The notes under the pieces are model-generated. The model worked only from the letters and a program-made list of their open reading frames with translations, was not told the DNA's origin and searched no databases. DNA of 64,000 bases from Candidatus Raymondbacteria bacterium RIFOXYA2_FULL_49_16 (GTDB taxonomy: Bacteria > Fibrobacterota > OXYB2-FULL-49-7 > XYB2-FULL-49-35): NCBI GenBank assembly GCA_001789205.1, contig MFYT01000006.1:1-64000 (forward strand). Reading direction: 5' to 3'. Numbering within the stretch: the stretch's first letter is position 1; each line of letters starts with the position of its first letter. The translations under genes were made by a program, and so were the position numbers. Below are positions 12,777 to 52,722 of this stretch, in pieces.

Positions 12777-12814
12777 TAAAAAAGTGCGGGACGCCCTTGG
12801 GAGGCGTCCCGCAC
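12777..12814 (-). terminator. Rho-independent terminator of the sigma factor gene
   Basis: On the - strand a perfect 12-base stem (12784-12795 with 12803-12814) encloses a seven-base loop and is followed by six uridines (12778-12783). It lies just past the sigma factor gene. A very similar arrangement, with the same bases upstream of the hairpin, follows the small sigma-4 gene near 51920. Confidence 0.9.
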
Positions 12815-12843
12815 CAACCACAAAAGAGAAGGGGGGGATTTAT
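12813..12843 (-). promoter_or_regulatory. Conserved 3' untranslated block of the sigma gene
   Basis: Between the stop codon and terminator lies a pyrimidine-rich block (ATAAATCCCCCCC, then TTCTCTTTTGTGGTTGGT). The same block, with five rather than seven cytosines, follows the small sigma-4 gene at 51889-51917. Near-identity here contrasts with much greater divergence of the coding regions. That suggests selection on the RNA or DNA itself, or a recent conversion. Confidence 0.6.
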
Positions 12844-12854
12844 GTATACGCCTA

Positions 12855-13703
12855 TTAGGCGCAATGCGCCATTTGCACTGTGGGAAAACCCGCTTTCATT
12901 TTTTCGAGGGCCTTTTTCTTGATCTGACGCACACGTTCTTTGGAGATGTTCAATTTTCTACCGATCTGCTCGAGGTTGAAGGAGGTTTCCGCGTCAATGC
13001 CAAAATAATACTTGATGACCTTTTTTTCCTGCGTGTTGAGGGAATCGACCATCTCATCGATATTAAAGCGCAGGGCGTCCTTGTCCACGAATTCGTCCGG
13101 CGCCTCGGTGTGGGTGTCGGCCATGAGGTCGTGGATATTGGCGTCGTTCTCGTCATCGATCTGGGCGTCCATGGAAACACGGTTGTTGGAAAGCGAGAGA
13201 ATCTGCTCAATCTCGTACGGTTTGCTCTGGGACTTACGCGCCACATAATCGTAATCAATGAAGCCGTGTTCTTGCAGAGACATTTCCGCGAGGCGGTTGA
13301 CCCGTTTTGACTTTGACTCTTTTTCCGCTGAGACGCGGACCAGGCGCGATTTCTCGTACAGGGCCTTGATAATGGACTGCCGGATCCACCACACCGAGTA
13401 GGAGATGAACTTGACCGAGTAGCTTGACATATTGTAGCGATCAATGCTTTCAATGAGCCCAAGATTGCCTTCGTTGATGAGCTCGGGCATGGAGAGGCCC
13501 TGGTTTTGGTATTTTATCGACACGCTGACAACAAACCTCAGATTGGACGTGATTAGTTTATTGAGCGCTTCCTTGCTTTTGCTTTTTTTATATTCAGTGA
13601 GGAGTTCACGTTCCTCTTCGCGCGAAAGGCGCGGATACCCTCTGATCTCTTTCAAATATTGATTAACGAAGTCCTGCTCTGTTCTGTACTTCTTATAATA
13701 CAT
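12855..13703 (-). CDS. Sigma-70 family RNA polymerase sigma factor (RpoD/SigA-like, short)
   Basis: A 282-residue sigma factor without region 1.1. Region 1.2 is near DFVNQYLKEIRGYP, region 2 spans LITSNLRFVVSVSIKYQ...LINEGNLGLIESIDRY...FISYSVWWIRQSII, region 3 follows, and region 4 is VIKYYFGIDAE...LEQIGRKLNISKERVRQIKKKALEKM. It resembles the short primary sigma factors of Bacteroidota/Fibrobacterota, though a group 2 role is also possible. The ATG at 13703 is preceded by GGAGGT; an in-frame TTG four codons upstream is not needed. It is monocistronic, with its own promoter and a strong terminator. An 84-residue relative at 51620 shares its first five residues, region 4 and C-terminal tail. 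Confidence 0.93.
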   Translation of the reverse strand: MYYKKYRTEQDFVNQYLKEIRGYPRLSREEERELLTEYKKSKSKEALNKLITSNLRFVVSVSIKYQNQGLSMPELINEGNLGLIESIDRYNMSSYSVKFISYSVWWIRQSIIKALYEKSRLVRVSAEKESKSKRVNRLAEMSLQEHGFIDYDYVARKSQSKPYEIEQILSLSNNRVSMDAQIDDENDANIHDLMADTHTEAPDEFVDKDALRFNIDEMVDSLNTQEKKVIKYYFGIDAETSFNLEQIGRKLNISKERVRQIKKKALEKMKAGFPTVQMAHCA

Positions 13704-13737: not shown

Positions 13738-13769
13738 AATATAACGAAAGTGGCTTTTCTATGTGTCAC
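13738..13769 (-). promoter_or_regulatory. Promoter of the sigma factor gene
   Basis: Read on the - strand, GTGACA (13764-13769) is followed after 20 bases by TATATT (13738-13743). The upstream CATTACA-N5-GTGACAC and the TTTCGTTATATTT block recur with identical spacing before the small sigma-4 gene (51555-51586), although the bases between differ. This conservation is the main evidence for promoter function. No transcription start is known, and -10/-35 assignment by eye is tentative. Confidence 0.6.
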
Positions 13770-13838
13770 GGTATTGTAATGGAGAGGTAAAAAGACGGTA
13801 ATGGAAAAAATCGGCGTAACCCGCTATTTTATAATGAC

Positions 13839-50273: not shown

Positions 50274-50593
50274 AATATATCACCGGGAGCGGGTATCAGT
50301 AAAAGGATGTAAAAAATAATAAATACACGGGTATAGGACAATGCAAATCACCCTTATGGGTAAATGGCAGGAGGCGGCGAAGTGTCCGCAAGTGACGGTT
50401 TCAGGCTCACACAAAGCCCCATTTAAAAACAGTCTCTGAAAACCCCTTTGTATTTCGTCCTTTTTTTTGGCTCCACCATTTTTTTTGGACCCGCCTCGCC
50501 GAGCGCGAGGCGGGCGAGTAAAAGAAATGGTGGAAATCCCGGTATTGGCAGCTTCCCGGTGATCAGCTTTTAATCTTACAATAGCATTACTCA
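50274..50593. other. Intergenic region with repeat block and palindrome
   Basis: About 320 bases with no supportable gene between the activase and the broken ATPase. It holds TATTTCGTCC plus a T-run and CTCCACCATT (50451-50480), which recurs before the sigma-4 gene at 51519-51546. It also holds the palindrome at 50472-50534. The remainder (50290-50445) shows nothing recognisable. Confidence 0.6.
50472..50534. repeat. Long nested palindrome
   Basis: An outer inverted pair (TCCACCATT, 50472-50480, with AATGGTGGA ending at 50534) encloses a perfect inner hairpin: CCCGCCTCGC (50490-50499), loop CGAGC, GCGAGGCGGG (50505-50514). It lies upstream of the ATPase remnant. The GC-rich core inside A/T-rich flanks looks like an inserted palindromic element; the T-run on its left makes it a possible - strand terminator after the... 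opposite-direction activase start, which is unlikely. Confidence 0.65.
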
Positions 50594-51491
50594 GTGAAGG
50601 CTGCCTGGGATGAAAAGGCCAGAAAAGAAATCCCTGTGGTAATCTTGGCGCTGGGGTCTTCCTCTTTTTTTATCCAGAAAGGCCTGTCAGAGAGCCTCTC
50701 CGGCCGTTTTCTGCTGTATCGCTTTCCTCATTGGAGCTTTCCGGAAATGAAGGCCCTGTACGGGTGGGATGTGGATAAATGGATCTTTTATGGCGGGTAT
50801 CCCGGCACCGGAACACTCGTCGATACACCCGGCACCTGGCAAAACTATGTCACGGATTCCCTCATTGAAACCGTGCTCGCAAAGGATGTGCTGCAAATGC
50901 AGAGCGTGGCAAAGCCCGCGTTACTGAGGCACCTCTTTGCGCTATCCGCGGCGCATCCGGCGCAGATATTTTCCTATAATAAAATGTTTGGCCAGCTTCA
51001 GGATGCGGGCAACACTACCACCCTGTCCCATTATCTCAAGCTCTTGGAATCAGCTTATCTCATCATGCGGACTGGAAATGTTCCGGCAGGGTCAGAGGGT
51101 CAAAAGAGGCAGCAGCCCCAAGATTATCTTATGGAACAATGCCCTTGTCACGGCGCTCCATTTAAAATCTTTTGCGGAAACACGGAAAGATCACGAATGG
51201 TGGGGGTGTCTTGTGGAAAACGCGGTCGGTGGTCACCTGCTCAATCACCTCCATGAGACAGCAGGTGAGTTGTATTACTGGCGGCAGAGAGACTTTGAAG
51301 TGGATTTTGTGCTGAAAACCGCTGAAAAAACAGTGGCCATTGAAGTCAAATCTTCCCGGCCAAGGGTGTCAAAAGGTCTTGAGGCGTTTTTAAAGAGGTA
51401 TCCAAAGGCCGTGCCGGTCATTATCGGACCGGGTGGCATAGCTCTTGAAGAGTTTTTCACCATGTCTTTAGACAAACTGCCAGGATTGTAA
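50594..51491 (+). pseudogene. DUF4143-type AAA ATPase, truncated and frameshifted
   Basis: The first frame holds the middle of the family: VVILALGSSSF, LSGRFLLYRFPHWSFPEM, FYGGYPG, YVTDSLIETVLAKDVLQMQSVAKPALLRHLFAL and LSHYLKLLESAYLI. A one-base shift near 51065 continues as GLEMFRQGQRVKRGSSPKIILWNNAL, ENAVGGHLLN, LYYWRQRDFEVDFVLKTAEKTVAIEVKSSR, to the stop at 51491. The N terminus with the Walker A nucleotide loop is missing. Such ATPases (often annotated as ATP-binding DUF4143 proteins) are common as addiction or accessory genes in uncultured bacteria. Clearly nonfunctional here. The C-terminal PD-(D/E)xK-like DVDF/EVK motif is preserved. Confidence 0.85.
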
Positions 51492-51554
51492 CGGTTGTTG
51501 TTTATAATTATTGTCGCGTATTTCGTCCTTTTTTTACTTCACCATTACATTCGT

Positions 51555-51586
51555 GTGACACTTAGAAATTTGGTTTTCGTTATATT
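51555..51586 (+). promoter_or_regulatory. Promoter of the sigma-4 gene
   Basis: GTGACA (51555-51560) and TATATT (51581-51586) are 20 bases apart, exactly as before the full sigma gene at 13738-13769. Conserved with that promoter are CATTACA five bases upstream of GTGACAC, TAGAAA, and TTTCGTTATATTT, while spacer bases differ. Conserved upstream bases continue to the T-run at 51529-51535. Confidence 0.6.
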
Positions 51587-51619
51587 TATAACACACAAGA
51601 CAATGTATCGGAGGACAGA

Positions 51620-51874
51620 ATGTATTACAAAAAACCTGCTGTGAAGAATGAAGAAAAACATGTCAATATTGAAGAAATGATCGGTACACTCACCAGTCCG
51701 GAAAAACTGGTCATCAGTTCCTATTTCGGGCTCAACGAAAAAGAAGCGTTGACCCTTGAGCAAGTCGAGAAAAAGCTGAATATTTCAGAGGAACGGGTCA
51801 GGCAGCTCAAAAACAATGCTTTGGATAAAATGAAACATGCCTTCCAAACAGTACAAATAGCGTATTGCACATAG
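51620..51874 (+). CDS. Stand-alone sigma region 4 protein (truncated sigma paralogue)
   Basis: An 84-residue protein with GGAGGA upstream. It begins MYYKK, as does the full sigma factor, then skips regions 1.2-3 and resumes at the equivalent of region 4: NIEEMIGTLTSPEKLVISSYFGLNEKEALTLEQVEKKLNISEERVRQLKNNALDKMKHAF, ending TVQIAYCT (the full sigma ends TVQMAHCA). Region 4 contacts the -35 box and the polymerase beta flap, so the protein could bind one of these without forming holoenzyme. Its promoter, 3' block and terminator match those of the parent gene. No anti-sigma or activator function has been shown. Confidence 0.85.
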   Translation: MYYKKPAVKNEEKHVNIEEMIGTLTSPEKLVISSYFGLNEKEALTLEQVEKKLNISEERVRQLKNNALDKMKHAFQTVQIAYCT

Positions 51875-51888
51875 CACTATGTGTTAAT

Positions 51889-51917
51889 ATAAATCCCCCT
51901 TCTCTTTTGTGGTTGGT
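51889..51917 (+). promoter_or_regulatory. Conserved 3' untranslated block of the sigma-4 gene
   Basis: ATAAATCCCCC followed by TTCTCTTTTGTGGTTGGT, which is identical to the block after the full sigma gene (12813-12843 on the other strand) apart from two cytosines. The function is unknown; candidates are a protein- or RNA-binding element shared by the two transcripts. Confidence 0.6.
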
Positions 51918-51920
51918 AAC

Positions 51921-51949
51921 GGGGCGCCCCCCCTTGGCGCCCCTTACTT
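51921..51949 (+). terminator. Rho-independent terminator of the sigma-4 gene
   Basis: A perfect eight-base stem GGGGCGCC (51921-51928) with GGCGCCCC (51936-51943), a seven-base loop of CCCCCTT, then TTACTTTTTG. It is preceded by the same conserved block as the full sigma gene, although the hairpin bases themselves differ. Confidence 0.85.
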
Positions 51950-52046
51950 TTTGTGTTCTTGACCTTCCCTCCTGCGGAATGACATTTTAGAAACAGACAA
52001 ATGAAATTTTCTGTGGCAAACAAGAGCATCAAAAAAGGAGACAACA

Positions 52047-52190
52047 ATGGGTAAATTTTTGATCGTGGTTTCGCTCTTTATGTTCGGCTGTGCTTCTCAA
52101 AAAGCGACCAAAAGCAATGCTGATCTGTCAGAGGAAAAGGCCAAGGCGGGTTTTGAAGAGATGCAGAAGGAATTGGACAAAAATAAGTGA
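52047..52190 (+). CDS. Small 47-residue lipoprotein
   Basis: The ATG at 52047 follows AAGGAG at 52035-52040 and the frame runs to TGA at 52188-52190. The product begins MGKFLIVVSLFMFGCASQK, with a clear lipoprotein signal (lipid-acceptor Cys at residue 15). The remainder is a charged helix (SEEKAKAGFEEMQKELDKNK). It is too short for family recognition. It lies 170 bases after the sigma-4 gene, beyond its terminator, so it is probably transcribed separately; its own promoter was not located. Confidence 0.7.
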   Translation: MGKFLIVVSLFMFGCASQKATKSNADLSEEKAKAGFEEMQKELDKNK

Positions 52191-52212: not shown

Positions 52213-52722
52213 TCAGGCAAGCGCCCGCTGATATTCTGCTAGATCCCGTTCTGAGAAGCAGCAAAAGATCACCTGCATGGGATTGACAAGGGTTTCAAGC
52301 GTGGTGCGTACCGTGGCAACAGCCACCTGGGCCGCCTTCTCAATTGGATAGCCATAGACACCGGTGCTTATCGCCGGAAACGCGATCTCCCTGATTCCAT
52401 GCTGTTGTGCAATCTCTAAAGATTTTCTGTAACAACTTCCCAGCAGCCCTTTCTCGCCCCGTGCGCCTCCATGCCACACAGGACCCACGGTATGGATCAC
52501 GAAACGGACAGGCAGTTTGTAGCCCTTGGTGATTTTTGCGTCTCCGGTCGCGCATCCGCCCAGCGTACGGCACTCTGCCAGCAGTTCCGGGCCTGCCATC
52601 CGGTGAATGGCGCCGTCAACACCGCCGCCTCCCAGAAGCGTGGTGTTTGCGGCATTGACAATGGCATCGATTCTTAGGGTCGTTATATCAGCGCGCATGG
52701 CTTTCATGGAAGGTTTTACCAT
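52213..52722 (-). CDS. Macro-domain protein (O-acetyl-ADP-ribose deacetylase-like)
   Basis: A 169-residue macro domain. The ADP-ribose pocket motifs are [55 protein letters not shown], and [14 protein letters not shown]. It is of the MacroD/YmdB type, whose members deacetylate O-acetyl-ADP-ribose or reverse mono-ADP-ribosylation. The start at 52722 has AGGAG eight bases upstream; a start five codons in is also possible. It is divergent from lptE. Confidence 0.92.

Follow-up and report, generated by a model that had tools for sequence, protein, structure and literature searches.

A pared-down sigma factor copy that keeps the control elements of its parent and probably tunes the parent's activity

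The short gene and its parent

The window analysed here is a stretch of 64,000 nucleotides (positions 1 to 64,000 of contig MFYT01000006.1) from Candidatus Raymondbacteria bacterium RIFOXYA2_FULL_49_16. At 51620-51874 on the forward strand it carries a short gene for an 84-amino-acid stand-alone sigma-70 region 4 protein, identified by Pfam, by identity with a parent sigma factor and by predicted fold. The gene starts with ATG, 5 nt downstream of a Shine-Dalgarno sequence GGAGG (51610-51614, forward strand), and its frame is intact with no internal stops; an earlier sequence-only reading of this DNA had its coordinates and reading frame right. The protein matches the Pfam domain Sigma70_r4 at 1e-11 over domain positions 2-50 of 50, and region 4 is the sole sigma region that it matches in Pfam. 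This whole-domain match, together with matches to region 4 chains in the PDB by sequence and by fold, makes it a member of the sigma-70 region 4 family. As an alternative identity we considered a YlxM-type HTH protein; no such family appeared in Pfam at E values up to 0.1, and Sigma70_r4 was the best match. Sigma factors are the proteins that direct RNA polymerase to genes, and their region 2 is responsible for core binding and for -10 recognition. The short protein does not qualify as a functional sigma factor, since region 2 is required and only region 4 is matched.

The parent gene lies at 12855-13703 on the reverse strand, so that the two transcription units have opposite orientations within the window, and it encodes a 282-amino-acid sigma factor with regions 1.2, 2, 3 and 4 (Pfam, NCBIfam). 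Both proteins begin with MYYKK, and their region 4 sequences are identical at 37 of 69 positions (54%). At the DNA level the similarity of the two units consists of exactly two blastn blocks, one running from the promoter through the start codon (51531-51633, with 72% identity across 105 nt), the other from region 4 through the terminator (51665-51952, with 69% across 290 nt); the flanks, when compared, gave nothing further. Genome-wide, the only strong blastn matches to the short unit are these two blocks of the parent (E values of 6e-23 and 2e-7). It is therefore well supported by the sequence comparison that the short gene is a paralog of the 12855-13703 sigma, derived from a duplication of the whole unit in which some 200 codons of the interior were lost (residues 6 to ~205), as had been proposed when it was described as a duplicate with regions 1.2-3 deleted. 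The further proposal that MYYKK is joined directly to region 4 holds only in part: the pentapeptide is indeed common to both proteins, but it is separated from region 4 by a stretch of about 10 residues (PAVKNEEKHV) that match poorly.

A few other features of the window should be described. Immediately upstream of the short gene, at 50594-51491 on the forward strand, is an AAA_14/DUF4143 ATPase gene without its N-terminal part and in two overlapping frames, which is likely a pseudogene. This ATPase relic is flanked, at 50450-50480 and 51518-51548 on the forward strand, by a repeat that is exact over 18 nt, GTATTTCGTCCTTTTTTT, and 87% identical over 31 nt, and that is found nowhere else in the genome; it is perhaps a trace of an insertion or a local duplication beside the short gene. 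Also next to the short gene are a macro-domain protein (52213-52722, reverse strand) and, at 52048, a small frame that resembles a lipoprotein. Elsewhere in the window, 620-1364 and 1628-2360 form a direct repeat of about 740 bp with 66% identity.

Promoters and the shared 3' module

Comparison of the two sequences, aided by blastn, points to a promoter region at 51531-51586 on the forward strand for the short gene (CATTACA at 51543-51549, GTGACA at 51555-51560, TATATT at 51581-51586) and to one at 13738-13793 on the reverse strand for the parent (CATTACA at 13775-13781, GTGACA at 13764-13769, TATATT at 13738-13743). Both have exactly the arrangement CATTACA-N5-GTGACA-N20-TATATT, which agrees with the original observation, and CATTACA-N5-GTGACA has exact matches in the 5.4 Mb genome at these two genes only. 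Over the stretch TTTTTAC..TTATA, 41 of 54 positions are identical. This is above neutral expectation, with P ~4e-6 at the rate of third codon positions and 0.01 if neutral identity is 60%. A scan for sigma-70 consensus promoters with spacings of 16-18 finds no promoter at either gene, because the unusual N20 spacing is outside its range.

A genome search for GTGACA-N16-20-CGTTATA returned five further matches, all of them copies of one repeat, TGTGACAGGTTTTGTCACATC, beside transposase- or recombinase-like frames, and we therefore do not claim a regulon. This repeat is a 21-nt near-palindrome with 16 copies in the genome at up to 3 mismatches and none for the reversed control; after several copies come CGTTATA and frames that resemble transposases or tyrosine recombinases. 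A single promoter match with 1 mismatch, on C70 ahead of an ABC transporter-type frame, lacks a comparable -10 and is regarded as chance.

The 3' ends of the two genes have the same order of elements: an inverted repeat over the stop codon, a 23-nt block and an intrinsic terminator. In the short gene (forward strand) these are CACATAG-CA-CTATGTG with 7 bp (51868-51883), the block CCCCCTTCTCTTTTGTGGTTGGT (51895-51917) and a terminator with an 8-bp stem and a T tract (51921-51951). In the parent (reverse strand) they are CGCCTA-A-TAGGCG with 6 bp (12849-12861), a block identical over all 23 nt (12813-12835) and a terminator with a 12-bp stem (12784-12814). That each terminator is preceded by the same block had been noticed before and is confirmed here; the stop-codon inverted repeats were absent from that account. 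They are rare in the window: among 103 long frames a single one has a stop-codon stem of at least 6 bp, and about 100 other frames lack such a hairpin. The two hairpins have arms of different sequence, yet the arms pair in each gene, in a comparison of two sequences with a 2-nt register shift. The terminators, again only two sequences, differ by one compensatory pair, G-C to A-U.

The block itself is 100% identical, against 45% identity at the near-saturated third codon positions, and this exceeds neutral expectation (P ~3e-6, or 0.002 at 60% neutral identity). Its 18-nt core has two exact sites in the genome, at these two genes only, and an RNA model of the 3' end matches only the same two genes in 167 genomes. 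Such conservation, with stop-codon hairpins so rare in the window and with stable 3' folds (z -4.1 and -5.7), would suit the idea that the short gene acts mainly as RNA, its 3' tail being a decoy for a trans-acting regulator (a protein or a small RNA), or sharing one with the parent, or yielding a 3'UTR-derived small RNA. In our opinion this is quite unlikely. The stability of the folds is largely driven by the terminators, Rfam has no match for the 3' end, and within 3 mismatches the genome holds no complementary partner of the block beyond the background of reversed patterns. Further, the block pairs with its own mRNAs no better than shuffles do, nothing convincing was found for pairing with start regions in the window, and its predicted pairing within the full-length mRNA is not low.

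Selection on the short gene

For the pair of region 4 sequences we obtained a dN of about 0.3 and a dS of 1.3-2.2, the latter near saturation, so dN/dS is well below 1; codon positions 1 and 2 are 77% identical and third positions 45%. When the short branch was simulated as neutral, at 0.5 changes per site, the copies kept a mean of 36% amino acid identity, with a maximum of 54% in 400 runs, and the chance of having no stop was 14%; the real gene has 54% identity and no stops. Since simulated neutral copies are on average less identical and mostly carry stops, coding constraint on the short gene is likely. In a tree of region 4, limited by its 68 columns and long branches, the end branch is 0.76 for the short gene and 0 for the parent, so that essentially all of their divergence falls on the short branch. 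The short protein has thus changed faster, which suggests either weaker constraint than on the parent or a shifted role, and the constraint on it seems moderate.

These data bear directly on the question of whether the gene is a slowly decaying duplicate, a truncated sigma fragment that happens to keep a promoter and a terminator and whose 3' similarity comes partly from occasional gene conversion. The faster evolution of the short branch would agree with decay, as would the truncated and frameshifted ATPase gene that adjoins it upstream, and no orthologs were found in up to 167 genomes of the phylum. However, the ratio of the rates points the other way, 54% identity with an intact frame is improbable for a neutral copy at such synonymous divergence, and the ribosome-binding site, promoter, block and terminator are all intact. 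The view that this is not a decaying fragment is thus supported, with constraint that is moderate, and we do not class the gene as a pseudogene; decay would be a rather improbable explanation.

The absence of orthologs deserves a separate comment. For neither gene was one found in up to 167 genomes of the phylum, where the two proteins match other sigmas only (the best match of the parent has 45% identity), and no compared genome is closer than the phylum level; absence elsewhere therefore says little. All of the short sigma-4 frames examined in the phylum genomes run off contig ends. Scans of genome collections gave no match for the short protein and distant sigmas only for the pair, and among phages, plasmids and viral contigs there were either no matches or full or unannotated sigma-like ones below 60% identity.

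Fold and contact residues of the short protein

Structure prediction from the single sequence was poor (pLDDT 59). With a 13-row alignment of sigmas pLDDT rose to 72, and because that alignment is made of sigmas, the predicted region 4 fold is partly imposed by it. This alignment-guided model matches 1ku7, which is region 4 bound to -35 DNA, and also the sigma4-flap chimeras 7kuf and 8cyf; the predicted fold is compatible with flap binding.

For a closer look we mapped the residues on E. coli numbering and used published lists of functional positions (PMC4943231). From the core-binding list, positions 555 (E555), 562, 563 (F563) and 598 are the same as in the parent and I565 is conservatively changed. 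Among the -35 contacts the short protein has K584E, K593N and Q554P, and at position 584, where 51 of 52 other sigmas have R or K, it has E. G577E affects a position that is listed for both DNA and core binding. Over positions 551-603 the net charge falls from +7 in the parent to +1 in the short protein. This loss of basic residues suggests that binding of the short protein to -35 DNA may be weakened. However, changes are found in 7 of 16 DNA contacts and in 32 of 69 positions overall, with no statistical enrichment in DNA contacts, so weakened binding is no more than our inference. Further, the recognition helix retains E585, R586, R588 and Q589, which are identical in all 52 compared sigmas, and L573 and E574 are kept too. 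With the recognition helix in this state, -35 binding may survive.

The same residues make it conceivable that the short protein works independently as a small regulator that binds DNA, using its HTH on -35-like DNA and not acting on RNA polymerase at all, and its fold likeness to 1ku7 agrees with that. We consider it unlikely: the acidic residue at 584, the asparagine at 593 and the lowered net charge argue against it, and the genome search for matching promoters yielded no wider regulon.

Comparison with known systems

The short protein shares sequence, helix order and predicted fold with region 4 of group 1/2 sigma-70 factors (PF04545); it differs in that its gene encodes this domain only, with regions 1.2-3 missing, and in its loss of charge at DNA contacts. 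There is nothing unusual in homology to region 4, and separate proteins that carry sigma regions are already known. SigO-RsoA of Bacillus subtilis is a two-protein sigma (PMC10141391), and the likeness to it is that sigma regions reside on separate small proteins. This precedent suggests that the short protein might be half of a split sigma, its region 4 acting in trans with region 2 from another protein. Unlike in that system, the present genome has no orphan region 2 partner at the sensitivity of Pfam: all 11 of its 11 region 2 matches are in frames of at least 176 amino acids that also match region 4. Hence the short gene is not half of a split sigma, as far as we can judge, and we hold that explanation to be very improbable.

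Two phage T4 proteins also invite comparison. The small protein gp33 replaces sigma region 4 at the beta-flap tip, shows no DNA binding of its own, can repress alone and activate with a partner, and is structurally unrelated to region 4 (PMC7892883). It is thus not a region 4 homolog, whereas the short protein is a genuine paralog of region 4 in a host sigma. AsiA is an anti-sigma factor that binds region 4 (PMC2988021). The short protein could likewise lower sigma activity via the same interface, the difference being that AsiA binds region 4 and the short protein itself is region 4. In a limited search of the open-access literature we found no case of a region-4-only paralog that retains the parental promoter together with a strictly conserved 3' module. 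This agrees with the earlier remark that such genes are not widely described, and as a negative it is weak.

Implications of the hypothesis

In our opinion, the pared-down copy probably tunes the activity of the parent sigma. The retained promoter and 3' tail make it probable that the small protein and the parent are produced jointly, under the same conditions. Free region 4 would then occupy a surface otherwise taken by region 4 of the parent, which may lie on the tip of the beta flap or on an anti-sigma or activator that binds region 4, and with that surface occupied, parent-directed transcription would be limited or tuned. The earlier suggestion that the product could compete with or titrate the parent is therefore plausible. 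The loss of basic -35 contacts would fit a protein that has kept its partner contacts and binds DNA more weakly. We infer expression, co-regulation, partner binding and the direction of the effect from the sequence.

In its specific form, a co-regulated region 4 micro-protein that modulates the parent as a competitor or a decoy, we give this hypothesis somewhat less than an even chance. It is favoured by region 4 homology with an intact frame, by control elements unique to the pair, by a low dN against saturated dS, by a promoter and a block more similar than neutral expectation, by core-binding positions kept while -35 contacts have changed, by the drop in charge, and by the fall of nearly all the divergence on the short branch. 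Against it stand the preserved recognition-helix residues, the change G577E, the lack of enrichment in DNA contacts and the failure to find an ortholog among the genomes compared; relaxed constraint, too, would fit the faster evolution. A wider formulation, which we offer tentatively and regard as doubtful, is that the sigma and its free region 4 paralog constitute one regulatory module, with the same promoter and the same 3' RNA module, in which a built-in decoy would limit or sharpen the parent's output and the 3' module would place both genes under joint post-transcriptional control.

If the hypothesis is confirmed, it would reveal a simple route by which a bacterium may acquire a brake or a decoy for its own sigma factor: copy the whole unit, remove the central part and retain the control elements. 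A further implication would be an element at the 3' end of sigma mRNA that is conserved more strictly than the protein.
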